From assembly GCA_030426665.1 (NCBI GenBank), contig JAUHYD010000019.1, forward strand, positions 1 to 64,000: a DNA stretch of 64,000 bases, written 5' to 3'. The notes under the pieces were generated by a model. It was given only the letters and a program-made list of their open reading frames with translations. It did no database searches and was not told the origin of the DNA. Positions 23,778-39,417 of this stretch are shown piece by piece (positions within the stretch are counted from its first letter, which is position 1; every line of letters begins with the position of its first letter). The stretch is from Bacteroidia bacterium (GTDB lineage Bacteria > Bacteroidota > Bacteroidia > Chitinophagales > Chitinophagaceae). Made by a program: the position numbers and the translations under genes.

Positions 23778-23792
23778 AGTCTAAAAAAATCT

Positions 23793-23856
23793 CAATTTAT
23801 TTGTGTTTTCGACTACAACACATGACGGCCATCATAAAAAAACCTGACGTTTATCA
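23793..23856 (-). promoter_or_regulatory. Promoter of the kinase-regulator operon with two FixK/FNR-like boxes
   Basis: The minus strand carries a -7 box TAAATTG (23799-23793, one T short of TAnnTTTG) 15 bases before the ATG. Two full TGAY-N4-RTCA boxes lie upstream: TGACGGCCATCA at 23823-23834 and TGACGTTTATCA at 23845-23856 (plus-strand reading). Their centres are 29.5 and 51.5 bases from the T of the -7 box. The distal box overlaps the stop codon of the preceding gene. The arrangement fits activation at about -41.5 and -63.5. Confidence 0.7.
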
Positions 23857-24564
23857 CTTCTTGTGGCAGCAAGACGAATGGACTCCCGTATGCGAGACAG
23901 ATACTTTCGGGCTCAAATAAGGTATTCCAAGATTCATGCCCCTTAAAACAAACAAACAGCCGAAAGAAAAAACAACAACAGGCACCAACCTACGAAGCTG
24001 GTTAGTTCTCAGAAAAGATACCTTGCTCTTTAATACAGTGATACCGACAAGCATTGGAATAGTGCCAAGCCCAAATACATAAATCATTCCAACAGACTGA
24101 GCCACATCCGGCAGTGTCATTGAAGCAGAAAGTGCCATGTATACCAATCCGCAGGGCAACAAGCCGTTCAGTATCCCAGCCATTGTAATAGCACCTAATG
24201 TCGGCCTTCCCATTACCTCGCCCAACCTACTCTTCACGTAAGCAGCCCACGGCAAGTTTATGCGGAACGACGTTGTCGGAAAAAATGCCATTATGCCGGC
24301 AATCAAAAAGAAACTACCCAAAATAATAGATACATATTGCTGTACCTTAGGGTCAAATACGTCGCGAAAAGAATGAAGTGTAGCAGCCATTAATGCATAT
24401 ACAGATATGCGACCCAAATGATACAAACCTATGGCCAAACCTCTTTTCACACCTCCAAACGCCTGAAATGGCATTATCCACATAATAGGGCCACACATAC
24501 CGGCACAATGCAAACTACCGGTAAAGCCCATCAGAAAGCCCATTATGATTGTAGCACTACTCAT
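23854..24564 (-). CDS. TauE/SafE-like (DsbD_2-type) membrane protein of the cbb3 operon
   Basis: A 236-residue protein with six or more membrane helices, starting GFLMGFTGSLHCAGMCGPIM, the hallmark of the family annotated as sulfite exporter TauE/SafE or urease-accessory-like (DsbD_2). The tail has metal-ligand residues (HTGVHSSCCHKK). In many Bacteroidota and Proteobacteria this gene follows ccoG-ccoH, and copper delivery or cytochrome maturation is the usual suggestion. Its start codon overlaps the ccoH stop, so it is translated with the cbb3 operon. The HCAGMCGP motif and Cys/His tail favour metal handling over sulfite export (inference). Confidence 0.75.
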   Translation of the reverse strand: MSSATIIMGFLMGFTGSLHCAGMCGPIMWIMPFQAFGGVKRGLAIGLYHLGRISVYALMAATLHSFRDVFDPKVQQYVSIILGSFFLIAGIMAFFPTTSFRINLPWAAYVKSRLGEVMGRPTLGAITMAGILNGLLPCGLVYMALSASMTLPDVAQSVGMIYVFGLGTIPMLVGITVLKSKVSFLRTNQLRRLVPVVVFSFGCLFVLRGMNLGIPYLSPKVSVSHTGVHSSCCHKK

Positions 24565-25022
24565 CAGTCGTGGAGTTGAATTTCAGATTCCTGATAATAA
24601 TCTTTGCCTGCTAATGCACAACTTATCTTTACGATATACCTTGTATTTTGCAATGCCACTCTGGGAACAGCCATCCTGTTGCTTCCTGATTGCATTGCTA
24701 TATCAAAAGACTTATCCCATGCTGCATTTACCGGAGAATAAAAACTAACTTTTCCGGTAAGCTCACCCTTACTCAATTCATCGGGAAACTCAATTACTAC
24801 CTGACTACCGTTGGCGTGTATTGCCATTGCCGCAGAAAGCCCGGCCTGATTCTTACCGGCATCGATTACATTTTGGTACTTTATCTCATCGTCGTAGTAA
24901 TTCTCAGACACAAGGTCAAAGTCCTGACGCACGCTGGATACAACCAGCAACAATATCATACCGGCAAAACCGGTATATAAAACCGCTATCTTCCACCCCC
25001 ATCCCATTTTCATAGCTTGCAT
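24564..25022 (-). CDS. ccoH: CcoH/FixH accessory protein
   Basis: A 152-residue protein with one N-terminal membrane helix (about residues 9-30) and an extracytoplasmic beta domain, as in FixH/CcoH. VSENYYDDEIKYQ just after the helix is the family signature. CcoH is needed for stable assembly of cbb3 oxidase. It lies 11 bases after ccoG and overlaps the TauE-like gene by one base. Confidence 0.88.
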   Translation of the reverse strand: MQAMKMGWGWKIAVLYTGFAGMILLLVVSSVRQDFDLVSENYYDDEIKYQNVIDAGKNQAGLSAAMAIHANGSQVVIEFPDELSKGELTGKVSFYSPVNAAWDKSFDIAMQSGSNRMAVPRVALQNTRYIVKISCALAGKDYYQESEIQLHD

Positions 25023-25033
25023 TTTAATTGTTT

Positions 25034-26440
25034 TTATTTACCGTTAAAAGGTCCGAGAAAGGAAGTCTTGATAGTTGATATCTTCTTCCCGTTCTCGTAT
25101 ACTCCTATCTCAATTATTGTCTTTCTACCCGCTACATCTTTATTGTCAACATAAACAAACATAGCGCCCTGAGCTGTACCATTCTTTGGAACAATAAACT
25201 GTTTTCCACCTACCGGCTTTATACTACCACTAAAATTCTCAGGCTTAAGCACCAGCTCTTTATCCTTAAAAGTTTTATTCAGCATTTCGAAATTATACAG
25301 ATTACTCAGTTGATTGTTGGGCTGCTCCTGATAGAGCTGTCCCGGTGTCCTGAGTATTGTTACCCCTACATCTGTACGACTTGCCAACAACCAAACCAAT
25401 ACACCTAACAGCAAAACCATCACAATACTGTATGCCTTCATTCGCCAGGTAGAGTGCCACACACGCTTCTTTGAAATACTGTTTTCTGATGCATAACGTA
25501 TAAGCCCTTCTTCCAGCCCCACGGCATTCATCATCTTGTTACATACATCTATACAGGCCGTACAATTGACACACTCTAGCTGCGTTCCATTCCGGATGTC
25601 TATCCCGGTGGGACACACATCTACACACTGATGGCAGTCGATACAGTCCCCTAACGTACGTTCCTCATTTTTCTTGAACTTGCCGCGCTTCTCACCTCTC
25701 TTATAGTCGTACGCTACTACTATCGAATCTTTGTCAAGCAGCACACCTTGCATCCGGCCATAGGGGCATATTACAGTACAAACCTGCTCTCTCATCCACA
25801 AGTACACAAAGAAGAAAATGGTGGTAAATAACGCAAGGGTTGTAAACGTACCCAGGTGTTCTGAAAACGGCTCGCTTATCATCTTCTCTAGCTCATCAAC
25901 ACCTATAATATATGCCAGAAACGTATTAGCAATAATGAAACTCATCAACCAAAAGACTGTCCATTTCGACAATCGTTTGATAATCTTTTGAGTATTCCAC
26001 GGGCTCTTCTTCAACTGCTTCTGCGCACCTGCATCCCCATCAATCCAGTACTCCACTTTACGGAAAACCATTTCCATAAACACGGTCTGCGGACAAGCCC
26101 ACCCGCAAAACACCCTACCAAAAACAACAGTAAACAGCGCAATGAAAACGATAAAAACTACCATTCCCAAAGCGAAAATAAAAAAGTCCTGAGGCCAGAA
26201 AATCTGCCCAAACAAGATGAACTTACGCTCAAGTATATTAATCAGAAAAACCGGATGACCATTTACTTTTACAAAAGGCAGCCCGAAAAACACAATCAGG
26301 TACAGTACTGTCACCCAAATCCGCAAATTGTGCAATCGTCCGTGGGGCTTCTTAGGAAATATCCATATCCTTTTACCTTTACTATCTACCGTCGCTACCG
26401 AATCCCTGAACGATTCGGGACTACCGCCATTGTCTTCCAT
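25034..26440 (-). CDS. ccoG: cbb3 oxidase assembly protein CcoG (FixG)
   Basis: A 468-residue membrane protein with about five helices and polyferredoxin clusters. Motifs are CGWACPQTVFMEMVFRKVEYWIDG, the cluster pattern CIDCHQCVDVCP and CVNCTACIDVC, and a C-terminal Ig-like FixG domain (about residues 350-468). CcoG is a copper(II) reductase that supports copper insertion into cbb3 oxidase. It sits between ccoP and ccoH, nine and eleven bases away, in the same operon. Confidence 0.95.
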   Translation of the reverse strand: MEDNGGSPESFRDSVATVDSKGKRIWIFPKKPHGRLHNLRIWVTVLYLIVFFGLPFVKVNGHPVFLINILERKFILFGQIFWPQDFFIFALGMVVFIVFIALFTVVFGRVFCGWACPQTVFMEMVFRKVEYWIDGDAGAQKQLKKSPWNTQKIIKRLSKWTVFWLMSFIIANTFLAYIIGVDELEKMISEPFSEHLGTFTTLALFTTIFFFVYLWMREQVCTVICPYGRMQGVLLDKDSIVVAYDYKRGEKRGKFKKNEERTLGDCIDCHQCVDVCPTGIDIRNGTQLECVNCTACIDVCNKMMNAVGLEEGLIRYASENSISKKRVWHSTWRMKAYSIVMVLLLGVLVWLLASRTDVGVTILRTPGQLYQEQPNNQLSNLYNFEMLNKTFKDKELVLKPENFSGSIKPVGGKQFIVPKNGTAQGAMFVYVDNKDVAGRKTIIEIGVYENGKKISTIKTSFLGPFNGK

Positions 26441-26448
26441 TTTACTAA

Positions 26449-27603
26449 TTATTTTTCGCTATCACTTGCAGCCGAGTCCACCACTGCCGTGCTATCGGTA
26501 GTGGTTGTTGCTTCAATATAAAGTTCTCCTTGGGGGTCTTTAGGTGTAACCGGCTTAGTTCCTCTCAAAGACTTGATGTAGCATGCCAGCTCCTGTATCT
26601 GCTTAGGAGAATAGTCGTCCTTCCAACTTTTCATACCCTTATCCTGCCAGCCGTATTTAATTGACTTGAAGATATCCTGAATGCTGCCACCATGTAGCCA
26701 ATAATCGTCCGTTAGATTCGGACCAACACTACCACCGCCATCTGTAAGGTGGCAAGCCGCACATACCTTTACAAATAGGTTCTGTCCTGCAACCAAAGTA
26801 GCCTGATCAGTAAGATAGGTAACCGTATTTTCATCAACGTTATTAGCTGATTTCGCCAGATAGGCTGCTTTATCTCGCTCACCTTGTTCCATTTCCGCAA
26901 CAAACTCCTCGTGCTGACTCATACCGTCATGAGAAATATGATAACGATATATGTAAATTACAGCAACCACTATTGTCAGGTAAAAACCATACTTCCACCA
27001 TGGGGGCAAGCTGTTATCGAGCTCCTGGATACCATCGTAGTTGTGGTCGAGCAATATTTCTTCTTCCTCTTCAATGGTAGCTGCCTTATTGAATTTATCC
27101 CAAAACCAACTTTTCCTGATAACTGCTTCTGCCTGAGCCTCCAATTCCGGTCTGGCCCGAATAACCTTCAATAGCACATTGATATAGAATATCAGCGCGA
27201 AAATGATAAAAATCTCGAAAGCGATAACGGAAACAAGTAAATAGAAATCACTTGCCAGTATTCCATCAATACTCTGCCCCCCTGCCACCGGCAAAGCATC
27301 GGCAGCAATGGCCTGCAAAGATGACATCAAGCCGCCTGCCAGCAACAGTATGACAACTGCTGTTGTAGACTTTCCCGAACGGTCCTTCCTGATTTTATCC
27401 CGCACTACCTGGCTAAGCTGCCTCATTGTATTGGCTAATACACCGATAATAAAAAGAAGTATCACCATTAAACTAACCAAACTCAACAGTGTATAGTTGT
27501 ATTGAGGACTCTTGTCCATCGGGCTTTGTACCGCATAAGTCACCACAGGAAACATGCAGGTTGCCAACGCTGAAATTAAAATTATCTTTCTTGAAGCTTG
27601 CAT
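26449..27603 (-). CDS. ccoP: cbb3 oxidase cytochrome c subunit CcoP, mono-heme with N-terminal membrane extension
   Basis: A 384-residue subunit with an unusually long membrane part: helices at about residues 5-25, 38-58, 82-100, 120-145 and 205-222. The CcoP N-domain signature WWKYGFYLTI precedes the last helix. One heme site is visible, CAACH at 281-285. Proteobacterial CcoP has two, so the second heme domain is missing, as seen in other Bacteroidota. The Ser/Thr/Ala-rich tail is low complexity. It passes electrons to the CcoN core. It lies 28 bases after ccoQ and nine before ccoG. Confidence 0.92.
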   Translation of the reverse strand: MQASRKIILISALATCMFPVVTYAVQSPMDKSPQYNYTLLSLVSLMVILLFIIGVLANTMRQLSQVVRDKIRKDRSGKSTTAVVILLLAGGLMSSLQAIAADALPVAGGQSIDGILASDFYLLVSVIAFEIFIIFALIFYINVLLKVIRARPELEAQAEAVIRKSWFWDKFNKAATIEEEEEILLDHNYDGIQELDNSLPPWWKYGFYLTIVVAVIYIYRYHISHDGMSQHEEFVAEMEQGERDKAAYLAKSANNVDENTVTYLTDQATLVAGQNLFVKVCAACHLTDGGGSVGPNLTDDYWLHGGSIQDIFKSIKYGWQDKGMKSWKDDYSPKQIQELACYIKSLRGTKPVTPKDPQGELYIEATTTTDSTAVVDSAASDSEK

Positions 27604-27631
27604 AAGAGCTACTGTTTGATTTAAAAAAATA

Positions 27632-27805
27632 TTACTCGTTTTCGCTTTCCGGAAAAGGTATCTGTTTCAATTCGTTGATATATTTCTTGTCTGCTCGCAA
27701 AGACCAGGTAGCCATCGCAGAAAAAAACAAGAAGAAAATAGCTAACGACATGAGTGGGTAAACCCCTATCCCCGTAATTGTCTCCAAATAATGTATGAAT
27801 TTCAT
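27632..27805 (-). CDS. ccoQ: CcoQ/FixQ small subunit
   Basis: A 57-residue protein starting MKFIHYLETITGIGVYP, with a single membrane helix at about residues 15-35 and a short charged cytoplasmic tail (ADKKYINELKQIPFPESENE). Size, topology and position between ccoNO and ccoP identify it as the CcoQ-type subunit, which stabilises the complex. It starts 11 bases after the ccoNO stop. Confidence 0.8.
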   Translation of the reverse strand: MKFIHYLETITGIGVYPLMSLAIFFLFFSAMATWSLRADKKYINELKQIPFPESENE

Positions 27806-27816
27806 ATTCTGATGTT

Positions 27817-29985
27817 TTATGGATTAAGTGCTGACTTTTGTTCCAATTTGATGTCGGTTCCTACTCGCTGCAGATAAGCAATCAGCGCTACAATCTCTTT
27901 GTTACTCTTAATTGTAATTTTATCTTTTGCCAGATTGTCCCTGATACCATCCGCCTGCTTCATTAAGTCCGCGTTTGCCACCTTGTCATAACCTTCATCA
28001 TAGGGTACGCCCAGGGTTATCATCGCTCTAATCTTCGGCCCGATAGATGCTGTATCTATATCATCCTTGAACAACCATGGGTAGTTTGGCATAATGGTAC
28101 CGGGTGAGATGCTCGAAGGTTCGTACATGTGGTTGAAGTGCCAGCTATCCGGATACTTACCACCTATCCTCGCCAAGTCGGGCCCGGTACGCTTACTACC
28201 CCACTGGAACGGGTGATCGTACACAAATTCACCTGCTTTAGAATACTCTCCATACCTTACCACTTCGCTTCTGAATGGTCGTACCATCTGGCTGTGACAT
28301 AAGTAGCACCCTTCACGTACGTAAATATCACGACCGTACAACTCCAACGGTGTATAAGGCTTAACACTACTTATCGTTGGTACGTTTGACTTAACCATAA
28401 ATGTTGGTATCATCTCTATAGCACCGCCTATGGCAACCAACACCAGACTCCAAACAAGCATCTGTACCGGCCTGCGCTCGATCCAGCTATGCCAGTGCTG
28501 CCTGCTGTGTGGTGTATATTCCTTGGAAAGCGGTGCGGCTTCTGCAGCTTCGTCCTCCAGTAAGCTACCGGCCTTGATGGTTTTGTACAGGTTGTAGCAC
28601 ATTATCAGTGCTCCTATCAGGAACAGCGTGCCACCAACACCTCTCATGGCATAAAACGGCTTCATCTGATTCACCGTATCCATAAACTGATACTTCAATG
28701 TTCCTTCAGCGGTAAACTCTTTCCAGGCAAGACTTTGCATGAAACCCGCCCAGTACATCGGAACCACATAAAACACAATACCTAATGTTCCTATCCAGAA
28801 GTGATTATTAGCAAGCTTTATCGAGTAGAGCTTAGTTCTGAATATCTTCGGAATCAAATAATACAGTATACCAAACGTCAGGAAGCCATTCCAGCCGAGC
28901 GCTCCTACGTGAACGTGTGCAATTGTCCAGTCTGTAAAGTGACTGATGGCATTTACATTCTTCAGACTCAGCATAGGACCTTCAAACGTTGCCATACCAT
29001 AGGCAGTCACCGCAACTACCATAAACTTAAGCACCGGATCTTCTCTTACTTTATCCCAGGCTCCGCGCAGCGTAAGCAAACCATTCAACATACCACCCCA
29101 TGAAGGAGCAATAAGCATGATTGAGAAGACCGTACCCAAAGATTGTGCCCAATCCGGCAATGCTGTGTACAACAAGTGGTGAGGACCGGCCCAGATATAA
29201 ATAAATATCAATGCCCAGAAGTGAATAATAGACAATCGATACGAGTAAACAGGTCTGTTTGCCGCCTTAGGCATAAAGTAATACATAAGACCCAGGTAAG
29301 GAGTAGTCAGGAAAAATGCCACCGCATTATGTCCGTACCACCATTGCACTAAGGCATCCTGAACCCCTGCATACCATGAATAAGACTTAAATAAGGATAC
29401 TGGAATCTCAATAGAGTTAACAATGTGCAACATGGCAACAGTAACAAAAGTGGCTATGTAGAACCAAATGGCAACATACAAATGGCGCTCCCTACGCTTC
29501 AGTATCGTACCAAACATGTTCCAGCCAAAGGCAACCCATACAACTGCTATTAGTATATCTATCGGCCACTCCAGCTCCGCATACTCCTTTCCAGACGTAA
29601 AGCCCAGAAGCAACGTAATTGCGGCCAACACGATAATGGACTGCCAACCCCAGAAATGAAATCTACTGAGCTTATCGCTGAACATTCTCGCCTTACACAG
29701 GCGTTGGAGCGAGTAGTAAACTCCCATGAAAATACCATTACCGACAAAAGCAAAAATTACGGCATTGGTGTGTACCGGTCTTACTCTGCCAAAGGTGGTG
29801 GGTGCCGACCCAAAATTCAGTGATGGATATACCAACTGAAAGGCAGCTAATATTCCGGCTAGCATACCTACTACGCCCCATATTATGGTTGCATAGGCAA
29901 ACATCTTTACGATTTTATTGTCGTAGAAGAACTTGTCTGTCTGCAATGCGACCGTACCCTGATTGCTATCAAATTCTGAATTCAT
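27817..29985 (-). CDS. ccoNO: Fused cbb3 oxidase subunits I and II (CcoN-CcoO)
   Basis: A 722-residue fusion of the catalytic and the mono-heme subunits of cbb3 oxidase, which reduces oxygen to water at low oxygen tension. CcoN covers about residues 1-475 with twelve or so helices; the ligands are His72 (low-spin heme), His219 (YGHN) and His269/270 (AGPHH) for copper B, and His357/359 (AHVHVG) for the hemes. CcoO covers about 505-722 with a helix at 508-530 and the heme site CYLCH at 560-564; PNYPWL carries the segment after the Met ligand region. The fusion is common in Bacteroidota and fixes a 1:1 ratio. It is the second gene of the ccoS-initiated operon. Confidence 0.96.
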   Translation of the reverse strand: MNSEFDSNQGTVALQTDKFFYDNKIVKMFAYATIIWGVVGMLAGILAAFQLVYPSLNFGSAPTTFGRVRPVHTNAVIFAFVGNGIFMGVYYSLQRLCKARMFSDKLSRFHFWGWQSIIVLAAITLLLGFTSGKEYAELEWPIDILIAVVWVAFGWNMFGTILKRRERHLYVAIWFYIATFVTVAMLHIVNSIEIPVSLFKSYSWYAGVQDALVQWWYGHNAVAFFLTTPYLGLMYYFMPKAANRPVYSYRLSIIHFWALIFIYIWAGPHHLLYTALPDWAQSLGTVFSIMLIAPSWGGMLNGLLTLRGAWDKVREDPVLKFMVVAVTAYGMATFEGPMLSLKNVNAISHFTDWTIAHVHVGALGWNGFLTFGILYYLIPKIFRTKLYSIKLANNHFWIGTLGIVFYVVPMYWAGFMQSLAWKEFTAEGTLKYQFMDTVNQMKPFYAMRGVGGTLFLIGALIMCYNLYKTIKAGSLLEDEAAEAAPLSKEYTPHSRQHWHSWIERRPVQMLVWSLVLVAIGGAIEMIPTFMVKSNVPTISSVKPYTPLELYGRDIYVREGCYLCHSQMVRPFRSEVVRYGEYSKAGEFVYDHPFQWGSKRTGPDLARIGGKYPDSWHFNHMYEPSSISPGTIMPNYPWLFKDDIDTASIGPKIRAMITLGVPYDEGYDKVANADLMKQADGIRDNLAKDKITIKSNKEIVALIAYLQRVGTDIKLEQKSALNP

Positions 29986-30009
29986 ATACTTTGAATTGAT
30001 GTTTTCTGT

Positions 30010-30168
30010 TTATTTTATTTGTTTACCTGATTCATCTTCGTACAACATGCGCATAGCGGCTCCGTCTTTATCGTCGTACTGGTCAGTCTTAACGCTCCAT
30101 ATAAATGCCGCCAGAAAAGCTCCGGCAACCACCATACTTATCGCAACCAATACAAAAAGTGCACTCAT
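30010..30168 (-). CDS. ccoS: cbb3 oxidase maturation protein CcoS
   Basis: A 52-residue protein, MSALFVLVAISMVVAGAF onwards, with a single helix followed by FIWSVKTDQYDDKDGAAMRM. The pattern F-W-A/S-V-K-x-x-Q-Y/F-D-D is the CcoS signature. CcoS is required for heme and copper incorporation into CcoN. It is the first gene of the operon and starts 29 bases downstream of the -7 box. Confidence 0.92.
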   Translation of the reverse strand: MSALFVLVAISMVVAGAFLAAFIWSVKTDQYDDKDGAAMRMLYEDESGKQIK

Positions 30169-30196
30169 CTCTTTCGGGATTATCTTTATTACGCAG

Positions 30197-30261
30197 CAAA
30201 ACTATTCAGGTAACAGGTCGTTATTCATGACTCCGCTCAATCGGAAACATGACAATAGTCA
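30197..30261 (-). promoter_or_regulatory. Promoter of the cbb3 operon with two FixK/FNR-like boxes
   Basis: The minus-strand -7 box is TAGTTTTG (30204-30197). The distal box TGACAATAGTCA (30250-30261) is a full palindromic match centred 51.5 bases above the T of the -7 box. The proximal TGACTCCGCTCA (30228-30239) has one mismatch and is centred at 29.5. The box core is identical to that of the hmgA operon. Confidence 0.7.
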
Positions 30262-30367
30262 TATTTATCATTCAGCGTAAAATCCAAAGGGAATTACCAT
30301 TATCTAAAGTTGAAATTGGCAGTAAATCGGATGTCATCATCAGGGGAATATTTGACAGATCAAACAA

Positions 30368-30580
30368 CTATCGAGCGTTCACTTTAACTATATCATCTAT
30401 CTGACACGGGCGATAACGAACCTCCCGCTTACCCGACGCCGTCTCGATGTACCATATACAATCGACCACATCTGCCATGTAGTTGTTTGTATTCACATCA
30501 TAATGCTGACCACGAACTACCATGGCAGGGCCTCCGTCCAGTAAACGCACCTTATCTCCGGGTTCAAAATGCACATTCAT
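30368..30580 (-). CDS. Small YodC-like (DUF2158) protein
   Basis: A 70-residue cytosolic protein, FEPGDKVRLLDGGPAMVV at the N-terminus and a VDCIWYIETASGKR segment later. The GD-V-L-GGP-M-V then C-W-Y/F pattern matches the small DUF2158/YodC proteins of unknown function. Its promoter has a -7 box 16 bases upstream and a FixK/FNR-like box at the activating position, so it is probably expressed together with the cbb3 oxidase. It lies between the cbb3 operon and a divergent small gene. Confidence 0.7.
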   Translation of the reverse strand: MNVHFEPGDKVRLLDGGPAMVVRGQHYDVNTNNYMADVVDCIWYIETASGKREVRYRPCQIDDIVKVNAR

Positions 30581-30595
30581 AATTATTACTTTCTA

Positions 30596-30660
30596 CAAAA
30601 GTACCCTGCTCCCCGGGCTAATTCTTTGATAGGGGTCATGCTGTATATTGTTTGTAGTCA
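30596..30660 (-). promoter_or_regulatory. Promoter of the DUF2158 gene with two FixK/FNR-like boxes
   Basis: The minus-strand -7 box is TACTTTTG (30603-30596). The proximal box TGATAGGGGTCA (30627-30638) is a full TGAY-N4-RTCA match centred 29.5 bases above the T. The distal TGTTTGTAGTCA (30649-30660) has one mismatch, centred at 51.5. Confidence 0.65.
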
Positions 30661-30722: not shown

Positions 30723-30787
30723 AAATCATTATCACTTACCGTACTGACCACGGTCATGATGTCGGCTGTGCCATCAAGTTACTTTTG
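30723..30787 (+). promoter_or_regulatory. Promoter of the 127-residue gene with FixK/FNR-like box
   Basis: The -7 box is TACTTTTG (30780-30787). The proximal box TGACCACGGTCA (30745-30756) is a full match centred 29.5 bases above the T. At the distal position only one half is kept (ATCA at 30731-30734). Confidence 0.65.
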
Positions 30788-30803: not shown

Positions 30804-31187
30804 ATGAAAAAAACAAACATTTCACACGTCAACAACGAGCACAATCGTTGGTTAAGAAGCTTGAATTTTTACAAAACAGAAATTAGTATCCTGAAAGGGC
30901 TGTTAACGGAAATCGCCGGAAAAAATACCGGTAGCGAAGTAGCGATGGATGTAGAGCATTTCGAAAACCAGTTTAAGATTCAGAACGAAAACATCGATGT
31001 ACTGGCACACGACATTCATGCAAACATTCATGCAATCAGCACGCAAGTTCAAGGTTCAAGTGCCGGATACATTGACGACAAATTGGTTGAAGAACATGCT
31101 GCTTTAGGCGAAAGATACCTGTCTGAAGAAGTGACCGTAAGAGAACTGACACAAGAATTTCGGAAGTTTGCAGAAAAGTGGATGTAA
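30804..31187 (+). CDS. Helical protein of unknown function, co-regulated with cbb3 genes
   Basis: A 127-residue cytosolic protein predicted to be almost wholly helical (FYKTEISILKGLLTEIAGKN, then FENQFKIQNENIDVLAHDIHANIHAI), ending FRKFAEKWM. The frame extends upstream to 30756, but the -7 box at 30780-30787 lies inside that extension, so the ATG at 30804 is the real start. Several His and acidic residues (VEHFENQF, AHDIHANIH) could bind a metal, but no known motif is seen. I do not recognise the family. Its promoter has a full FixK/FNR-like box, so a role under low oxygen is likely (inference). Confidence 0.7.
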   Translation: MKKTNISHVNNEHNRWLRSLNFYKTEISILKGLLTEIAGKNTGSEVAMDVEHFENQFKIQNENIDVLAHDIHANIHAISTQVQGSSAGYIDDKLVEEHAALGERYLSEEVTVRELTQEFRKFAEKWM

Positions 31188-31285: not shown

Positions 31286-33745
31286 CTAAGAATTAACCTC
31301 ACTTAAACGCAACCCCTGACGATAAGCGATTAAGCTACTAACACCTGTCGTAATTATAACTATGCTAATAGTACTGCACGGCATCAATATAGCCGCAATC
31401 ACGGGCGTCAAGACACCCATCATTGCAAGATACAGACCTATCACGTTATAAACGACGGACACGACGAAACTCAGTTTCATTACAGCGCCTGAGGCAGTAG
31501 CCAACTTTAAAATAGCAGGTAACTGCTCCAGTCGCTTCGCATCAAGTATTGCATCACACGACGGGGTAAAATTATTGACATCATCAGCAAGGGTTATGCC
31601 TACATTACTTTGCTGCAAAGCTCCTGCATCATTGAGCCCATCCCCTATCATTATTACCCTCCTACCCGACCGCTGCAACCTATCTATATAGTTCAGCTTG
31701 TCAACTGGCTGCTGGCTAAACAGTAGCCTGCTATCCTGCCCGAATACACGCTCAACATCTTCTCGTTGCCTGTCATTGTCTCCTGAAAGTAAAGAAAGCT
31801 GAAATCTATTTTTCAGATTAGCCAACACAGACGATACATTTTTCCTAAACGCCGGCTTGATTACAAATGCAGTTACAGCATCACCAATTCTTGCATAAAC
31901 TGCCGGGTGTGTTGTTCCTGTCTCCGGCTCAATAACACCTACGTACTTCCCGGAACCTACCAACACCAGCTTCTCATCGACAACAGCCTCGACACCCTGC
32001 CCCGGAACCTCTTTCCATTGCCCGAATATCAACTTCTTTCGCTCACCCAGCCACTGAATGATGGCCCGGCTATACGGGTGTGTGCTCTGCGATGCCACTG
32101 TATATAACATGTCTTTCTCCTGCTCAGAAAGCTGATGCCCATGTGCGACAACCTCTGCAGCACCATGTGTAATGGTACCCGTCTTGTCAAAAACAATACT
32201 GTCCGATTTTCCCAATTGCTCGATCACCGTTGCATCACGCAAAAACATCCCATTGTTACTGAGTATGCGCATTATATTGCCATTAGTAAATGTAGCTGAA
32301 AGCAGCAAAGCGCAAGGACAGGCAATAATCAGCATGGCAGAAACGCTGTCAACAATCATTGAAGGGTCAAAATACCACCAATATACTGCTGTAGCAGCTG
32401 CCAGTACAAACAAGATAACGGTAAAATACTTGCTCAGCTTATGTACAACACTTTCATTGTCATTGTCAGACTCCTTGTCCTTTTTGAAGGCATGATGATT
32501 CCACAATGAAGTCAGGTAACTACCGGCAACAGGCTTTATCACCTGTATCGTAATCTGTTCTCCCGTCTGTTTGCCCCCGGCATATATCTTTTCATTTGCA
32601 GCTACACTCACCGGCTCACTCTCCCCGGTAACAAAGCTGTAATCTATTCTTGCAACTCCGCGCAACAACACAGAATCTGCCGGAATCAGCTCGTCATGAT
32701 GCAGCTGCACTACGTCCTTCTCTTTCAGGTCCTGCAACTTCTTACTAACAACGCCATCCTTCGTGACAACATTTACAGCTATTGGAAAGTACGATTTGTA
32801 GTCCCGGGTAAAGGACAAAGACTTGTAGGTGCGCTCCTGTACCAACCTTCCGACCAACATAAAAAACACAATGCCGCTCATGCTATCTAGGTATCCGGCC
32901 CCTACATTCCACCCGATTTCGTATACACTCCTGACAAACGTGATTATGATTGCCAGCGCAATGGGTGCATCTATATTCAACGTACGTTGACGCAGCCCCT
33001 TCCATGCAGTAACAAAAAACTCAGACGCAGCATAAAAAAATACCGGAAGAGCCAACAATAGGTTCAGATAGCGAAACAAGCTCGTATACTGCTCTTCGAT
33101 ACCCGTCCTTTGGGACAAGTACTCCGGAAAACTCATCATCATGATATTCCCGAAACAGAACCCTGCCACACCCAACTTATAAATCCTTTGTTTGTTATAC
33201 GTCTTCGTTTGTTGCTTACTGGTATCATCCAGACTGATGTAGGGCTCATACCCTATTGTCGCCAGCAGCTCTACAATTTTACGCAAGCTAATACGGCTGC
33301 GCGAAAAATGAATCGTAACCTCTTTGGTGCTGAAGTTGAGTCTACTTTCAGAAATACCCTCATTTAAACGGTTAAGATGTTCCAGCAACCACATGCATGA
33401 AGTACAGTGAACACCAGGGATGTAAAATGTCACAATAGTATGGTCACCATTTGTAAACTTGTACAGCTGGTCTGCAATTTCTTCATTATCAAGATAGGAA
33501 AACTTGTCGTTTCTGATGGCTTTAACCTGTGCCAGACCAGGATGAGATTGCAGCGTGTAATAATCGCAAAGCCCGTTTTCGTTGATAATCTCGTAAACCA
33601 GCTTACACCCATCGCAGCAAAACGCTTTATCGTCAATACTTATGGCATCGGACGAGCAGGGAATACCGCAATGGTAACATAGTGTCTCCGTTGCGGTTTT
33701 AGGTTCATTTTTTACATATGCTTTATCAATAGTTACTGCCGGCAT
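31286..33745 (-). CDS. ccoI: Copper P1B-type ATPase CcoI (FixI)
   Basis: An 819-residue copper-exporting ATPase that supplies copper for cbb3 oxidase assembly. The N-terminus has a CYHCG...CCDGC zinc-finger-like ATPase_N domain (residues 23-47) and an HMA domain with CTSC at 114-117. TGES is at 373-376, the membrane metal site CPC at 476-478, the phosphorylated Asp520 in DKTGT, and GDGLNDAGAL further on. The combination of this N-domain with CPC is diagnostic for the CcoI/FixI subfamily. The start lies within the end of the upstream gene (20-base overlap), so the two are translationally coupled. The operon promoter has FixK/FNR-like boxes. Confidence 0.94.
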   Translation of the reverse strand: MPAVTIDKAYVKNEPKTATETLCYHCGIPCSSDAISIDDKAFCCDGCKLVYEIINENGLCDYYTLQSHPGLAQVKAIRNDKFSYLDNEEIADQLYKFTNGDHTIVTFYIPGVHCTSCMWLLEHLNRLNEGISESRLNFSTKEVTIHFSRSRISLRKIVELLATIGYEPYISLDDTSKQQTKTYNKQRIYKLGVAGFCFGNIMMMSFPEYLSQRTGIEEQYTSLFRYLNLLLALPVFFYAASEFFVTAWKGLRQRTLNIDAPIALAIIITFVRSVYEIGWNVGAGYLDSMSGIVFFMLVGRLVQERTYKSLSFTRDYKSYFPIAVNVVTKDGVVSKKLQDLKEKDVVQLHHDELIPADSVLLRGVARIDYSFVTGESEPVSVAANEKIYAGGKQTGEQITIQVIKPVAGSYLTSLWNHHAFKKDKESDNDNESVVHKLSKYFTVILFVLAAATAVYWWYFDPSMIVDSVSAMLIIACPCALLLSATFTNGNIMRILSNNGMFLRDATVIEQLGKSDSIVFDKTGTITHGAAEVVAHGHQLSEQEKDMLYTVASQSTHPYSRAIIQWLGERKKLIFGQWKEVPGQGVEAVVDEKLVLVGSGKYVGVIEPETGTTHPAVYARIGDAVTAFVIKPAFRKNVSSVLANLKNRFQLSLLSGDNDRQREDVERVFGQDSRLLFSQQPVDKLNYIDRLQRSGRRVIMIGDGLNDAGALQQSNVGITLADDVNNFTPSCDAILDAKRLEQLPAILKLATASGAVMKLSFVVSVVYNVIGLYLAMMGVLTPVIAAILMPCSTISIVIITTGVSSLIAYRQGLRLSEVNS

Positions 33746-34280
33746 TAATACTCTTTTGGGCCTCTATTACTTTCGGTATCAGGTAGTTGCTTTCTAGCAA
33801 GAACAACTCTGTGAGACCACTCTCTATAAGTGCCATGTGATTCCTTAAAATGCGATATTCTTCCGGATACATTGTCTCTGAATAAAGCGGGAGTGCAACA
33901 ATTTGTAGCCTGTCCAGTATCTTTTTTATCTCAGACAAAGACCCTTGCAGTTCCATGACATGCATATCATGACTGATTTTACAGCCTCCCTTACAGCCGG
34001 TACAGTCGTGGTTTGTCGCCACTTTTTCTGACAGAGACTGTATGTATGGTGTGTACTTATCAATTCTTCCCGTAATAAAGCGGCGAACAGCCCTTATCAA
34101 CTCCTTAGAAAGTAATATATACTGTGAGGCAGATTGCTGTATTTCCATATCGGTCAGTCGTTCTGCATGTTCGAGTGATTTGTCGCACAACGCAGCCAGA
34201 TCTGAATAACTGCCTTTACTCAACTGCTCTATGACCTCCGGAAGTGTTGCTTCGCTATATTTATAGTACACATTGGACAT
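33726..34280 (-). CDS. Helical protein with Cys cluster, coupled to ccoI
   Basis: A 184-residue, mostly helical cytosolic protein that I do not recognise. Its distinguishing mark is HDCTGCKGGCKISHDMH at about residues 91-107, with three Cys (C-x2-C-x3-C) and three His, which could hold a metal or iron-sulfur centre. The rest has long amphipathic helices. The gene overlaps ccoI by 20 bases and shares its promoter, so a role in copper handling, cbb3 assembly or redox sensing is the best guess. It is not a hemerythrin by the usual H-HxxxE pattern. Confidence 0.65.
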   Translation of the reverse strand: MSNVYYKYSEATLPEVIEQLSKGSYSDLAALCDKSLEHAERLTDMEIQQSASQYILLSKELIRAVRRFITGRIDKYTPYIQSLSEKVATNHDCTGCKGGCKISHDMHVMELQGSLSEIKKILDRLQIVALPLYSETMYPEEYRILRNHMALIESGLTELFLLESNYLIPKVIEAQKSINAGSNY

Positions 34281-34300
34281 AATTTACTCCCTATTTTGTT

Positions 34301-34365
34301 CAAAAGTATGTTCTTGCAGAAACGCAATTACTGATTCGGAATATTTCGAATCATGATTTACGTCA
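34301..34365 (-). promoter_or_regulatory. Promoter of the ccoI operon with FixK/FNR-like box
   Basis: The minus-strand -7 box is TACTTTTG (34308-34301). The distal box TGATTTACGTCA (34354-34365) is a full match centred 51.5 bases above the T. The proximal position (34332-34343) keeps only one half (TGAT) but is part of a nearly perfect 22-base palindrome, 34332-34353, with arms TGATTCG and CGAATCA. Confidence 0.65.
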
Positions 34366-34430
34366 GGAAATTGGAGAGAATATTAGTTGTATCTATGTAA
34401 AAACACCCTAAACGCAAACGTCACTAATTT

Positions 34431-34922
34431 TTAGTGACACTTAAAATACTCAAACGGCTCATTACAGTCTTCACAGCGGTATAATGCTTTGCAAGCCGTA
34501 GCGCCAAACCTCGTAACGATGGAAGTATTGTCGGAATTGCACAATGGGCACAGTATAACATTATCTGAGAAATTGCCTTTATTGCAGGAAGAATGAAGGG
34601 GAGGTGCTATACCGTAGTCCTTCAACTTTTTCTTTGCCGCGTCGGTCATCCAGTCCGTTGCCCATGCGGGACTATCCACCAGCTTTACGGATACCGATGG
34701 CACACCCTTCATTTCAAGCGTCATTTTTATATCCTGGGCTATTAACCCCATGGCCGGGCAACCGGAATATGTCGGCGTTATTATTACTTCACACCCTTCG
34801 TCAGTCATTACCACATCTCGTAGCATTCCCATCTCCTGAATGCTAACCACCGGAATTTCAGGGTCCGGTATCTCTGAAAGCATTTCAAATATGTCATCTT
34901 TAGAAAAGCTACTTACTACCAT
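34431..34922 (-). CDS. paaD: Phenylacetyl-CoA epoxidase subunit PaaD
   Basis: A 163-residue protein of the MIP18/DUF59 type with a C-terminal zinc ribbon. The N part has EIPDPEIPVVSIQEMGMLRDV and PTYSGCPAMGLI; the C part has CPLCNS and CEDCNEPFEYFKC. PaaD is thought to help assemble the iron centre of the PaaABC(E) oxygenase. It is the last gene of the hmgA-hpd-paaABCD operon and overlaps paaC by seven bases. A weak hairpin (GTCACTAA with TTAGTGAC) covers its stop codon. Confidence 0.92.
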   Translation of the reverse strand: MVVSSFSKDDIFEMLSEIPDPEIPVVSIQEMGMLRDVVMTDEGCEVIITPTYSGCPAMGLIAQDIKMTLEMKGVPSVSVKLVDSPAWATDWMTDAAKKKLKDYGIAPPLHSSCNKGNFSDNVILCPLCNSDNTSIVTRFGATACKALYRCEDCNEPFEYFKCH

Positions 34923-35674
34923 GTTGCATCAGGGTATGTTCGTTGTAAATATTGCATTTCTGTAAGGATGTGCCCCATATACTCTGTATGAATACCCTTC
35001 CTGCCACCGGTTTGCATATGTTGCGACCCGGGGACCATAACACCAACTTCTCTCAGGATATCCTCTATATATGTTTTCCAATTGCTCCTGATTGCTGCAT
35101 TATCAACAGCAATATTCTTATCCTGGAGCACCGCTACAACTTTGTCCGTTTCAAACATTTCCCCCGTATATGGACACAACTCGTCAATTGCACGCTCCAG
35201 CCTTTCATGGCTTTCTTCCGTACCCAACCCTAATCGCCTTACCCAATCGCTGGCATGCACCATGTGATATTGTGCTTCCTTAACGGTTTTTGCTGCTATC
35301 GCCGCCAATGTACCATCCTGACTATGGGTCAATTCACTATAAAAAAGGTGTTCCTGCGTTGCCGTAAACAACAACCGAACAATGGTAGTTGCGAAATCAC
35401 CCTTCGGCAATTCACAAATCAGATTATTGAAGTAGTGCCGCTCTTCTCTTCTGTAAGCCAGGTCGTCTTCTGTTCTCCCCTTCCCTTCTATTTCACCGGC
35501 ATAAGTCAATAATGCCCTCGCTCTACCGGTCAGGTCCAATGCGAAATTCGTTAGTGCCAGATCTTCCTCCAGCATCGGTGCATTGCGGCACCACTCTGAC
35601 AATCTGTAAGAATGTATCAATGCATCATCTCCTAGTCTCAGACAATAGCTAAAAAGCGCTTCCTTTTCAGTCAT
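34916..35674 (-). CDS. paaC: Phenylacetyl-CoA epoxidase subunit PaaC
   Basis: A 252-residue structural subunit of the phenylacetyl-CoA 1,2-epoxidase with a ferritin-like fold. Matches to the family include LRLGDDALIHSYRLSEWCRNAP at the N-terminus, LALTNFALDLTGRARALLTYAGE, and HYFNNLICELPKGDFATTIVR. PaaC pairs with PaaA but lacks a full di-iron site. It lies 12 bases after paaB. Confidence 0.93.
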   Translation of the reverse strand: MTEKEALFSYCLRLGDDALIHSYRLSEWCRNAPMLEEDLALTNFALDLTGRARALLTYAGEIEGKGRTEDDLAYRREERHYFNNLICELPKGDFATTIVRLLFTATQEHLFYSELTHSQDGTLAAIAAKTVKEAQYHMVHASDWVRRLGLGTEESHERLERAIDELCPYTGEMFETDKVVAVLQDKNIAVDNAAIRSNWKTYIEDILREVGVMVPGSQHMQTGGRKGIHTEYMGHILTEMQYLQRTYPDATW

Positions 35675-35686
35675 AACATTTGTTTT

Positions 35687-35977
35687 TTAAATAGCCTTTG
35701 CCCCTTCCGGCATTGTATAAAATGTTGGCATTCTGTAAATTTTGTCATTTGCGGGGTCAAATAACATTTCACTGTCGTTAGGGTCAGACGCTACAATAGC
35801 TGTTGCGGGTACTACCCATATGCTGGTCCCCTCACCCCTGCGGGTATAGGTATCCCTGGCATTCTGAAGTGCCATCCTTTTATCAGATGCGTGTACACTG
35901 CCCGCATGTATATAGTTTGCACCCGACTTCGACTGCATGAAAACTTCCCATATTTCAAGTTGAGAATCTGTTGCCAT
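35687..35977 (-). CDS. paaB: Phenylacetyl-CoA epoxidase subunit PaaB
   Basis: A 96-residue subunit with WEVFMQSKSGANYIHAGSVHA and DTYTRRGEGTSIWVVP, as in PaaB. The frame is open further up to 36040, but that extension overlaps paaA and lacks family similarity; the ATG at 35977 gives the normal length. PaaB bridges PaaAC units in the complex. Confidence 0.93.
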   Translation of the reverse strand: MATDSQLEIWEVFMQSKSGANYIHAGSVHASDKRMALQNARDTYTRRGEGTSIWVVPATAIVASDPNDSEMLFDPANDKIYRMPTFYTMPEGAKAI

Positions 35978-35987
35978 AACATTACAT

Positions 35988-36953
35988 TTATTGATTATCG
36001 TTTTGCTTTTTAATTCTTTCTCTGTAAGCCGCAGCAGCAATTCTTACCCATGCTCCATCGTCATGTACTTTCTTGTGGTGTGCTATACGCTGCCTGTTGC
36101 ACGGCCCATTGCCGGTGATTACTCTGTAAAACTCATCCCAATCAATCGGGCCATGGTCGTAGTGCCCTTTTTCCTCATTCCACTTCAAGTCTTCATCAGG
36201 GATTGTCAGACCTATCACCTCTGCCTGCTGAACCGTCTTATCTATAAACTTCTGACGTAGCTCATCATTAGAGTGTCTCTTAATTCTCCATCTGAATGCA
36301 TCACCCGTATGCGGCGACTCACTATCATGAGGACCAAACATCATCAACGAAGGCCACCACCACCTGTTCATTGCATCTTGTGCCATCTGTTGTTGTTCAC
36401 TGGTGCCACGTATCATTTTGGTCATTATCTCATAACCTTGTCGTTGATGAAAACTTTCCTCCTTACATATTCGCACCATCGCACGGCTGTAGGGGCCATA
36501 GGAGGTTCGCTGCAACGAAACCTGGTTTACAATTGCTGCGCCATCTACCAACCACCCTATAGCCCCGATATCAGCCCATGTCAACGCGGGGTAATTAAAT
36601 ATGTTTGAATATTTTGCCTTTCCTGCATGAAGTTGAGCTATCATTTCATCACGAGATATACCCAACGTTTCTGTAGCACTATACAGGTATAAGCCATGCC
36701 CGCCTTCGTCTTGTATCTTAGCCAGAAGAATCTGCCTTGCTCTCAACGAAGGAGCCCTAGTTATCCAGTTGCCTTCGGGTTGCATACCTATCACCTCAGA
36801 GTGTGCATGCTGCGACATCTGACGTATCAGGTGCTTCCGATATGCCTCCGGCATTGTGTCTCTGGGTTCTATTGAATCCCCTCTTTCTATCTTTTCTTCA
36901 AAATGCTTCAAACTTTCCTCATTCTCTTCCTCGCTATGCTTTAGCAGTTCCAT
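35988..36953 (-). CDS. paaA: Phenylacetyl-CoA epoxidase catalytic subunit PaaA
   Basis: A 321-residue di-iron oxygenase subunit that forms the ring 1,2-epoxide of phenylacetyl-CoA using molecular oxygen. Iron ligands are visible in [14 protein letters not shown] and [13 protein letters not shown] (two E-x2-H motifs). It opens with the usual [20 protein letters not shown] segment after a short acidic N-terminus. The reductase paaE and the later paaG, paaZ, paaK genes are not in the window. It lies 53 bases after hpd in the same operon. Confidence 0.95.
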
Positions 36954-37006
36954 AACCTTACTTTTAAAATGATATAAATAGCATAATGTAACTCACAGGG
37001 CATGTA

Positions 37007-38164
37007 TTACAGTGTTCCCCTTCTGGCTTGCTCTGCCTCTATCGACTCAAACAACGCCTGAAAATTACCCTTCCCGAACGAACGGGCGCCCTTCCGCTGA
37101 ATTATCTCAAAAAACATAGTGGGCCTATCTTCCACAGGTTTTGTGAATATCTGCAACAAATAACCTTCTTCATCACGATCAACCATTATTCCCAGCTCTT
37201 TCAGCACCTTCATATCTTCTGCAATTTCGCCTACCCGATTCTCGACAGTATCGTAATAGGTGCCGGGTACATACAAAAACTCAACACCTCTTTTACGCAT
37301 TTCAGAAATTGTATGAACAATATCGTCTGTTGCAACTGCTATGTGCTGACAACCCGGACCTCTGTAAAAGTCCAGGTACTCCTCCACCTGCGACTTCTTC
37401 AAACCGGCTGCCGGCTCATTTATCGGAAACTTAATACGGCCATTACCGTTGCTCATTACCTTGCTCATAAGGGCAGTGTACTGTGTCGAAATGTCCTTGT
37501 CGTCAAATGTGACCAGATTAGCAAATCCCATTACTCTACCGTAGAAATCGGCCCACTTATTCATACCACCCAGCTCCACATTGCCTACCATGTGGTCTAT
37601 ATACTTCAACCCGGTTGGCTCAGGGTTATACTCAGATGTCCACTTTTCATAACCCGGAAGAAATACACCCAAATAGTTCTTGCGCTCTACAAATATGTGT
37701 ACCGTATCTCCGTAAGTCCGTATGCCGGCTCTTACTACTTCTCCGGAGTCATCAGATTCTACCATCGGCTCAAAATATACTTCTGCACCCCTGCTTACGG
37801 TTTCCTCAAACGCCTTTCGCGCATCATCGACCCACAATGCAATCACCTTCACGCCGTCGCCGTGCATTTTAATATGCTCTGCAATCTGGCTGTCCGGCGA
37901 TAGCGGCGTAGTTAGCACCAACCTTATCTTACCCTGTACAAGCACATAAGACGTACGGTCCTTAAGTCCTGTTTCCAAACCGGCATATGCCAGCGACTGG
38001 AAACCGAATGCAGTCTTGTAGTAGTGGGCAGACTGTTTGGCATTACCCACATACAGTTCCACATAATCAGTACCATTTATCGGTAAAAAATCTTCAGCCT
38101 TATCGAATATCTTCTCGATTCCGTAGTTGAAGTTTGTAACGTTTTTTAAATCAGCACTACTCAT
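37007..38164 (-). CDS. hpd: 4-Hydroxyphenylpyruvate dioxygenase
   Basis: A 385-residue non-heme iron dioxygenase that converts 4-hydroxyphenylpyruvate to homogentisate in tyrosine breakdown. It has two vicinal-oxygen-chelate halves. Iron ligands are seen in YIDHMVGNV, GCQHIAVAT and the Glu in FFEIIQRKG, followed by the C-terminal helix FGKGNFQALFESIE. The frame extends nine codons upstream, but the ATG at 38164 (MSSADLKN) does not overlap hmgA and is preferred. It lies 11 bases after hmgA, which carries out the next step. Confidence 0.95.
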   Translation of the reverse strand: MSSADLKNVTNFNYGIEKIFDKAEDFLPINGTDYVELYVGNAKQSAHYYKTAFGFQSLAYAGLETGLKDRTSYVLVQGKIRLVLTTPLSPDSQIAEHIKMHGDGVKVIALWVDDARKAFEETVSRGAEVYFEPMVESDDSGEVVRAGIRTYGDTVHIFVERKNYLGVFLPGYEKWTSEYNPEPTGLKYIDHMVGNVELGGMNKWADFYGRVMGFANLVTFDDKDISTQYTALMSKVMSNGNGRIKFPINEPAAGLKKSQVEEYLDFYRGPGCQHIAVATDDIVHTISEMRKRGVEFLYVPGTYYDTVENRVGEIAEDMKVLKELGIMVDRDEEGYLLQIFTKPVEDRPTMFFEIIQRKGARSFGKGNFQALFESIEAEQARRGTL

Positions 38165-38175
38165 GATTTTGTTAT

Positions 38176-39333
38176 TTATTCTGTTAACCAAGATTTATAA
38201 TAGTCAGGCACCTCTATTGATAGCGCCTCCTTTGTAATCATTACCGGATTGAACGGGTCTATCATCACTGCCAGCTCTTGCGTTTCCTTCTGACCGATGC
38301 TTCGCTCAATAGCTCCCGGGTGAGGTCCATGGGGAATACCGCCGGGATGCAGTGTAAACTGACCTGCTTCTATATTGTTGCGGCTCATAAAGTCGCCATC
38401 CACATAGTACAGAATTTCATCACTGTCTATATTACTGTGGTGGTATGGTGCAGGTATTGCCAGTGGGTGGTAGTCATACAACCGGGGCACAAAAGAGCAA
38501 ATCACAAAATTCCGGCTCTCGAAGGTCTGATGAACAGGTGGCGGCATGTGAATGCGCCCTGTAATCGGCTCGAAATTGAAAATGGAAAAAGTATAAGGGT
38601 AATGGTACCCATCCCAGCCCGCTACATCAAAGGGGTGATTAGCATAAACATATGGAAACATCATACCCCTTTTCTTGATAAAAATATCAAACTCACCCTG
38701 CTCATCGTGCGTCTGCAAATCCTGTGGGCGCTTAATATCCCGCTCACAAAATGGTGAATGTTCTAATAGCTGCCCGAAGTCATTTCGATAACGTCGGGGA
38801 GTAAAAATCGGGTCAAACGACTCTACATACAGCAACTTGTTATCGGGCGTATCAAAATATATTTTGTATACCGTACCCCTCGGAATTACTATGTAGTCAC
38901 CATACTTGAAAGGCAGTGTACCATACATGGTCTCAACCTTACCACTACCTTTGTGTACAAACAACATTTCGTCGGCATCGGCATTCTTATAGAAATAAGG
39001 AGTAGATGCTGTTGGCGCAGCAAGGCCTATATGCATTGCCTGATTGACAAAAAGTGTCTTACGGCTCTTAATGTAGTCGGACTCTGGCGGCACATTTGCC
39101 CCCCTGAAACTCATTGCATTCAGTCCGTTTTCTACAGCAATTTCGGGTTTCACAGAATAGGGAACCCCCTTTTGCCGAACACGTGTTGGCGGGTACAAGT
39201 GATAAACTAATGAAGAAAGACCGCTAAACCCCTGTGTCCCTACCAACTCCTCCTGATATAGGTTTCCATTGGGTTGTCGGCTAACTGTGTGACGCTTTTC
39301 CGGTATTATTCCCAGACTATGATAAAAAGGCAT
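38176..39333 (-). CDS. hmgA: Homogentisate 1,2-dioxygenase
   Basis: A 385-residue iron dioxygenase that opens the homogentisate ring to maleylacetoacetate. Conserved segments are PPPVHQTFESRNFVICSFVPR, then YHHSNIDSDEILYYVDGDF and HPGGIPHGPHPGA, which hold the active-site His and Glu. Length is slightly below the roughly 430 residues of the mammalian and Pseudomonas enzymes, as usual in Bacteroidota. It is the first gene of the operon hmgA-hpd-paaABCD; its promoter has FixK/FNR-like boxes identical in core to that of the cbb3 operon. Confidence 0.94.
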   Translation of the reverse strand: MPFYHSLGIIPEKRHTVSRQPNGNLYQEELVGTQGFSGLSSLVYHLYPPTRVRQKGVPYSVKPEIAVENGLNAMSFRGANVPPESDYIKSRKTLFVNQAMHIGLAAPTASTPYFYKNADADEMLFVHKGSGKVETMYGTLPFKYGDYIVIPRGTVYKIYFDTPDNKLLYVESFDPIFTPRRYRNDFGQLLEHSPFCERDIKRPQDLQTHDEQGEFDIFIKKRGMMFPYVYANHPFDVAGWDGYHYPYTFSIFNFEPITGRIHMPPPVHQTFESRNFVICSFVPRLYDYHPLAIPAPYHHSNIDSDEILYYVDGDFMSRNNIEAGQFTLHPGGIPHGPHPGAIERSIGQKETQELAVMIDPFNPVMITKEALSIEVPDYYKSWLTE

Positions 39334-39352
39334 TTGATTGAATTTTCAAAAG

Positions 39353-39417
39353 CAAATTTATCGTACCACCTCCCCAATTATCATGATGATTGACACAGAC
39401 AAAAATGACAATAGTCA
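39353..39417 (-). promoter_or_regulatory. Promoter of the hmgA-hpd-paaABCD operon with two FixK/FNR-like boxes
   Basis: The minus-strand -7 box is TAAATTTG (39360-39353), 19 bases before the hmgA ATG. The distal box TGACAATAGTCA (39406-39417) is a full match centred 51.5 bases above the T. The proximal TGATGATTGACA (39384-39395) has one mismatch, centred at 29.5. Confidence 0.65.

Follow-up and report, generated by a model that had tools for sequence, protein, structure and literature searches.

The window analyzed here is a 64,000-nucleotide stretch (contig JAUHYD010000019.1, called C26 below) of a 4.62-Mb Bacteroidota genome from a Chitinophagaceae bacterium. Six promoters in it share a pair of palindromic boxes, TGAY-N4-RTCA. 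They stand before a histidine kinase operon, a cbb3 oxidase (cco) operon, genes for proteins of 70, 127, and 184 residues, and a run headed by a homogentisate dioxygenase-like gene (hmgA). A rescan of the window upheld the sequence-only reading in which the arrangement was first described: all seven full boxes and their partner sites lie where it put them, with 22 bases between box centers and with the centers 29.5 (proximal) or 51.5 (distal) bases upstream of the T of the -7 box, TAnnTTTG. Partners one mismatch off the consensus begin at 30228, 30649, and 39384, and the half sites at 30723 and 34332 have two mismatches each. That reading also had TAnnTTTG at all six promoters, which holds for five (T at 30204, 30603, 30780, 34308, and 39360); at each of these, one of the two positions, 29.5 or 51.5, is occupied by a full box and the other by a partner that is one or two mismatches off. 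In the kinase promoter, both boxes are full and the spacing of 22 is kept, but TAAATTGA, with two mismatches, takes the place of TAnnTTTG.

The kinase operon, on the minus strand, encodes the proposed reader of the boxes. This protein, REC-Crp (21010..22068), consists by Pfam of a receiver, a cyclic nucleotide monophosphate (cNMP)-binding fold, and a Crp-type helix-turn-helix (HTH). Its gene is overlapped by that of the kinase, which has two PAS domains (Pfam; 22065..23777, minus strand). Upstream, also on the minus strand, are the weak -7 position TAAATTGA (23792..23799), the exact proximal box TGATGGCCGTCA (23823..23834), and the exact distal box TGATAAACGTCA (23845..23856). The cco run begins with a fused ccoN-ccoO gene (Pfam; 27817..29985, minus strand) and continues with ccoP, ccoG, ccoH, and a DsbD2-like gene to 23854. 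Its promoter, on the same strand, consists of an exact distal box (30250..30261), a proximal box with one mismatch (30228..30239), and the -7 box TAGTTTTG (30197..30204). The 70-residue gene (30368-30580) is served from the minus strand by an exact proximal box (30627..30638), a distal box with one mismatch (30649..30660), and the -7 box TACTTTTG (30596..30603); its product, earlier assigned to DUF2158, has no Pfam match.

The 127-residue gene (30804-31187) is read from the plus strand, where an exact proximal box (30745..30756) is joined by a distal half site with two mismatches (30723..30734) and the -7 box TACTTTTG (30780..30787). The protein has no match in Pfam or NCBIfam; relatives are 28 to 31% identical in four loci and 65% in a fifth (L052). 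The next promoter, on the minus strand, combines an exact distal box (34354..34365), a proximal half site with two mismatches (34332..34343), and the -7 box TACTTTTG (34301..34308). It had been assigned to ccoI, the gene for the oxidase assembly ATPase (31286-33745), which does lie downstream, but the 184-residue gene (33726-34280) stands first. Last comes the hmgA-like gene (38176..39333, minus strand), which heads a run that extends to 34431 and includes HPPD and PaaA/C/D-like genes, and whose product matches the NCBIfam hmgA model far under the cutoff. Its promoter, on the minus strand, is composed of an exact distal box (39406..39417), the proximal box TGTCAATCATCA with one mismatch (39384..39395), and the -7 box TAAATTTG (39353..39360).

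Could such an arrangement arise by chance or from general promoter composition? A single TGAY-N4-RTCA box is common, with 4.5 expected per 64 kb, which is the mean of the shuffled windows. The window holds 11 exact palindromes, a number reached in 3 of 300 shuffles; 7 belong to the six promoters, and the other 4 start at 11895, 29960, 46803, and 55929. The pairs are not equally frequent in shuffled DNA: when a TAnnTTTG promoter was required to have one exact box and no more than two mismatches over the pair, five were counted in the window and zero in 300 dinucleotide shuffles. Across the whole genome, a box followed by TAnnTTTG at any of 31 gaps (15 to 45) gave 25 matches, versus 5 for a reversed control pattern; 7 of the 25 lie at 29.5 and 4 at 51.5, with 0.8 expected per gap. 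Outside the window, 5 of 19 matches are at 29.5 (binomial P = 0.0003). The full pattern, defined as a box pair 22 apart plus a TAnnTTTG -7 box with a mismatch limit set for each scan, had 13 genome matches at up to three mismatches versus 1 for its reversed form. The window accounts for seven of these, among them one (30692) that reuses the 30723 pair.

Comparison with relatives carries the case further. The closest ccoN relatives of the window belong to Chitinophagaceae and other Bacteroidota, mostly metagenome-assembled genomes, and the best 80 of at least 594 loci (1.6 Mb in all) were chosen for their similarity in ccoN, which enriches cco promoters among them and means that the loci are not independent. 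Of 191 exact boxes 10 to 90 bases from TAnnTTTG, 88 are at 51.5 and 54 at 29.5, and neighboring boxes separated by 12 to 60 bases form 86 pairs, 73 of them with a spacing of exactly 22. With eight control palindromes, no distance collected more than two boxes, and close pairs numbered one in total. When only an exact distal box was required, the unselected proximal box had at most one mismatch in 77 of the 88 promoters, with each base of TGA...TCA present in 89 to 98%. Promoters with one exact box and up to three mismatches in the pair occur in 60 of the 80 loci.

The FNR/FixK consensus box is TTGAT-N4-ATCAA. The description of the boxes as FixK/FNR-like stands as far as the TGA/TCA core goes, but the flanks of the distal box in the 88 promoters read [A/C]TGAY...RTCA[T/G] rather than TTGAT...ATCAA, and an FNR box proper was rejected on this consensus.

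Which genes keep the tandem promoter? Upstream scans of orthologs mostly returned either zero to three or seven to nine mismatches, and counts were taken at three or fewer. By this measure, the promoter precedes ccoNO in 68 of 80 loci, versus 29 of 800 random places in the same loci. Within the cco genes it is found before none of 36 ccoP genes, none of 72 DsbD2 genes, 1 of 75 ccoH genes, and 6 of 75 ccoG genes; ccoI has it in 13 of 65 loci. The small genes keep it as well: both orthologs of the 70-residue gene, four of five homologs of the 127-residue gene, and three of seven orthologs of the 184-residue gene, with three more of the last at four mismatches and a proximal site with one to three mismatches in five of the six orthologs listed. 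It is absent before paaC (0/4) and paaD (0/2) and precedes the REC-Crp gene itself in 1 of 31 loci.

For hmgA, ten near relatives were searched; nine had a match, eight of these a close ortholog, and the loci of 12 of the 16 matches were read. Of the eight close orthologs (78 to 88% identical), seven are preceded by the tandem promoter with two mismatches or fewer overall, and the -7 T of these lies 26 to 27 bases ahead of the start codon. In the eighth, the proximal box is exact, the distal box is two mismatches off, and the -7 box is one mismatch off. Two homogentisate dioxygenase-like copies are present in 7 of the 10 near relatives. None of four distant homologs (58 to 62%) has the promoter (8 to 9 mismatches), three of them being second copies in genomes that also bear an ortholog and the fourth (L168) a sole copy. 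Against the spacing peak, the control palindromes, the shuffles, the conservation at orthologs, and the absence at distant homologs, a chance or compositional origin has a negligible probability, and the first three led to its rejection.

What protein might read the boxes? The genome encodes ten cNMP-fold proteins, and REC-Crp is the only one with a recognition helix of the GTASESLIR type (GTASESLIRTL). In the relatives' loci, this type is typical of cco-linked regulators: with few deviants, the helix GTA.E(S/T).IR is common to REC-Crp homologs and to the stand-alone FNR-like Crp proteins encoded before ccoI in Chitinophaga and others. The output half of REC-Crp is made up of cNMP_binding and HTH_Crp_2 rather than a LuxR/FixJ-type HTH, and the top 50 fold matches listed for its AlphaFold model are Crp/FNR-type proteins. 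The model has a mean pLDDT (predicted local distance difference test) of 79, but with a pTM (predicted template modeling score) of 0.38 and scores below 50 for residues 127 to 147, it was not used to derive a domain arrangement. Receiver residues E8, D9, D52, T82, and K104, those required for phosphorylation, are invariant among 12 aligned sequences. At the places of the Glu and Arg with which CRP contacts cyclic AMP, an alignment shows other residues, which is consistent with phosphorylation in place of a ligand. The sequence also lacks the N-terminal cysteine set of the FNR [4Fe-4S] type. In 23 of 29 loci, the gene immediately upstream of REC-Crp encodes a kinase with a SHEFRTP motif, and the first PAS domain (PAS1) of the kinase in the window is related to the FixL heme PAS (E = 3e-16), with the heme His aligned. 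Cultured bacteria with REC-Crp in the locus include Pinibacter soli and a Hymenobacter.

The association of promoter and regulator was followed in 296 Bacteroidota genomes, one sample for all counts of REC-Crp (E ≤ 1e-50), tandem promoters (at most two mismatches), and FNR-like proteins (up to nine candidates scored per genome). The genomes were taken irrespective of whether they have a cco operon, and the values are rough. REC-Crp occurs in 43, the tandem promoter in 46, and both in 32. Thus, the promoter is found in 32 of 43 genomes with REC-Crp versus 14 of 253 without, and two or more such promoters are found in 29 of 43 versus 6 of 253. Within one genus (g18), tandem promoters are present in three of four genomes with REC-Crp versus none of 13 without (Fisher P = 0.006). 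All 17 g18 genomes match the FNR-like profile, and the helix is GTATESCIR in the 7 read of the 13 that lack REC-Crp. An FNR-like protein with this helix therefore need not be accompanied by tandem promoters, which in g18 follow REC-Crp.

Taken together, box sequence and geometry, conservation in relatives, and the association with REC-Crp are best explained, and probably so, by a microaerobic regulon activated from class II and class I positions, with REC-Crp the likeliest activator in this genome and, from sequence, the best candidate to read the boxes. In the available part of a study of Flavobacterium psychrophilum, TAnnTTTG spans -12 to -5 (PMC9723704), and with this placement the box centers would fall near -41.5 and -63.5; the distance from box to -7 element is fixed, and the predicted start site position follows from the F. 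psychrophilum placement. Two activator dimers could then sit on one face of the DNA and contact RNA polymerase from the class I and class II positions of what would be a low-oxygen regulon of Bacteroidota comprising the six promoters. A low-oxygen or redox signal would lead the kinase of the same operon to phosphorylate the N-terminal receiver of REC-Crp, and this would switch the FixK-like Crp half. Since the kinase/REC-Crp operon carries the boxes itself, it may be autoregulated. The chain FixL to FixJ to FixK would in this way be collapsed into one step, with the functions of FixJ and FixK in a single protein. The cbb3 oxidase and the assembly ATPase ccoI fit low oxygen as targets.

Several observations weigh against this reading. 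(i) The -7 box of the kinase operon itself is poor. Three kinase orthologs remained after exclusion of those with an alignment start beyond residue 40, a kinase or REC-Crp identity below 44%, or a start less than 120 bases from the locus edge; one of the three has the tandem promoter at up to three mismatches, and two retain the box pair, with no more than one mismatch, next to a weak -7 box, while the third lacks such a promoter. (ii) In the 80-locus scan, the one hmgA gene found, that of L067 (71% identical), lacks the tandem promoter, so conservation is not universal. (iii) In the exact scan of the genome, none of the 19 matches outside the window is at 51.5. (iv) PAS1 of the kinase has a Met where FixL has the FG-loop Arg, which, like the proximal His, is characteristic of heme PAS domains; heme-based oxygen sensing is thus unproved. 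In L091, one of the relatives, the FixL stretch looks canonical. (v) Eleven genomes, all of family f5, have REC-Crp but no tandem promoter, and 14 have the promoter without REC-Crp, six of them with two to fifteen copies, so the link is not one to one. (vi) The oxygen-consuming aromatic degradation run (hmgA-like, HPPD, and PaaA/C/D) fits low oxygen less obviously. (vii) Loci and genomes are related, and counts and Fisher values overstate their independence. (viii) The genome also encodes a stand-alone FNR-like Crp, L002 (C30:61059-61724), with a different helix, GTTYETFFR, and an N-terminal CxxxxCxxCxxC run.

Might L002 be the main reader, with REC-Crp secondary or an unrelated neighbor? Just upstream of ccoI in Chitinophaga and others stands an FNR-like Crp with an N-terminal CxxC in 12 of 12 aligned sequences and a helix that is mostly GTATES.IR. 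Further, the six genomes with at least two tandem promoters but no REC-Crp (G017, G076, G111, G150, G271, and G273) all have FNR-like matches at an E value of 2.7e-79 or better, each with the helix GTATE(S/T).IR. The helix of L002 itself differs, however; all 13 g18 genomes with an FNR-like protein but no REC-Crp are devoid of tandem promoters, despite the same helix in the 7 read; and in 15 genomes outside f5, REC-Crp is the sole profile match at an E value of 1e-35 (G178 has none), and each has at least one tandem promoter. We consider a leading role for L002 unlikely. Slightly less probable still is that both regulators use the tandem code here, for example, one per box or at different oxygen levels. 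Both kinds are present in this genome, and box quality does differ, with 88 promoters having an exact distal box and 54 an exact proximal one, but 15 non-f5 genomes with tandem promoters have REC-Crp and, at the thresholds used, no FNR-like match, and six show the reverse. Among the f5 genomes with a single profile match, G130 has no tandem promoter, G234 has one, and G053, whose match is not listed by place, has none.

The tandem-box regulon that the sequence-only reading proposed, with its class II and class I sites, is therefore strongly supported by relatives and genome matches, but the single regulator is not: the same code occurs in genomes without REC-Crp that have an FNR-like Crp of nearly the same helix, and L002 is present here. 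A further reading has about even odds: that the cis code has been kept across Bacteroidota families while its reader was swapped between an iron-sulfur (Fe-S) FNR-like Crp and a phosphorylation-switched REC-Crp, so that the input was rewired and the promoters stayed unchanged, with the spacing set by RNA polymerase or the Crp body rather than the receiver. That contacts between receivers set the 22-bp spacing is made less likely by the genomes that lack REC-Crp, where the spacing is identical.

How does this compare with known systems? In rhizobia, a FixL-FixJ-FixK cascade controls the cbb3 operon fixNOQP. Two-site activation by E. coli CRP and FNR (class III, that is, class I plus class II) likewise uses sites on one helical face, near -41.5 and -61.5 or -63.5. 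In the available part of a paper on Rhizobium leguminosarum, an hFixL-FxkR-FixK cascade controls fixNOQP (PMC7888657). The system proposed here resembles both cascades in its presumed low-oxygen kinase, its Crp/Fnr-type last activator, and its cbb3 operon target; it differs in that receiver and Crp output are fused, the boxes are paired 22 bp apart on a Bacteroidota -7 box, and PAS1 is not a canonical heme PAS. With FixJ, REC-Crp shares a receiver with conserved phosphorylation residues but not the LuxR/FixJ-type output. As in class III promoters, two Crp-type sites are in helical phase; unlike there, where this is one promoter type of many, the pair here has, as a rule, a single fixed spacing throughout a regulon and across families. 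The Chitinophaga-type FNR-like Crp beside ccoI has nearly the same recognition helix, and the same tandem boxes precede ccoI and ccoNO in many of its loci, but it lacks a receiver and has conserved cysteines, which suggests an Fe-S sensor. In flavobacteria, the available part of the F. psychrophilum study reports a second promoter class with TAnnTTGY, which the kinase -7 position TAAATTGA resembles in part, and a strong rise of cbb3 under oxygen limitation, with no regulator named there (PMC9723704).

A search of open-license papers found no named cbb3 regulator for Bacteroidota and, in open-license full text, no account of such a tandem code. Crp sites in tandem are already known, as is the control of cbb3 by FixK; what is apparently new is that one fixed tandem arrangement recurs across Bacteroidota families, linked to a REC-Crp fusion and, it seems, also used by an FNR-like reader. 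The finding matters in that it offers a sequence-defined, testable low-oxygen regulon for Bacteroidota and a natural example of what looks like a fusion of the FixJ and FixK steps into a single protein. With its fixed geometry, the TAnnTTTG promoter makes activation rules testable beyond those of the sigma70 type, and an exchange of readers on an unchanged cis code would be informative about network rewiring.

Of the six full-pattern matches beyond the window, four stand before genes for a short-chain dehydrogenase, a 1-Cys peroxiredoxin, an ABC transporter (about 300 bases downstream of its match), and a protein with a weak Usp match (its -7 box is one base closer); of the remaining two, one overlaps the peroxiredoxin site and one is on C20. 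Single exact boxes at 29.5 are near UPF0176/rhodanese-, DnaJ-, and metallo-hydrolase-like genes and two genes without a Pfam match; these may be candidate regulon members only.

A few separate observations deserve mention. At C1:67583-67669 (L039 and L044), three boxes follow each other every 22 bases ahead of the 1-Cys peroxiredoxin gene; one of them is exact, and the other two are one mismatch off. In the survey, G099 (f3), with REC-Crp, has 31 tandem promoters, and G271 (f46), a distant genome without it, has 15 together with a strong FNR-like Crp match. In L094 (7147-/7228+), L117 (5319-/5400+), G292, G064, and G072, a tandem pair lies between divergent TAnnTTTG-like boxes 81 apart (51.5 + 29.5), and one pair may thus drive both directions. 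Finally, at 46803-46867 of the window, an exact box is located 51.5 from TAnnTTTG (46860) without a proximal partner, before a thioredoxin-like gene (46896-47528); the box sits within the end of a small receiver open reading frame and may be due to chance.

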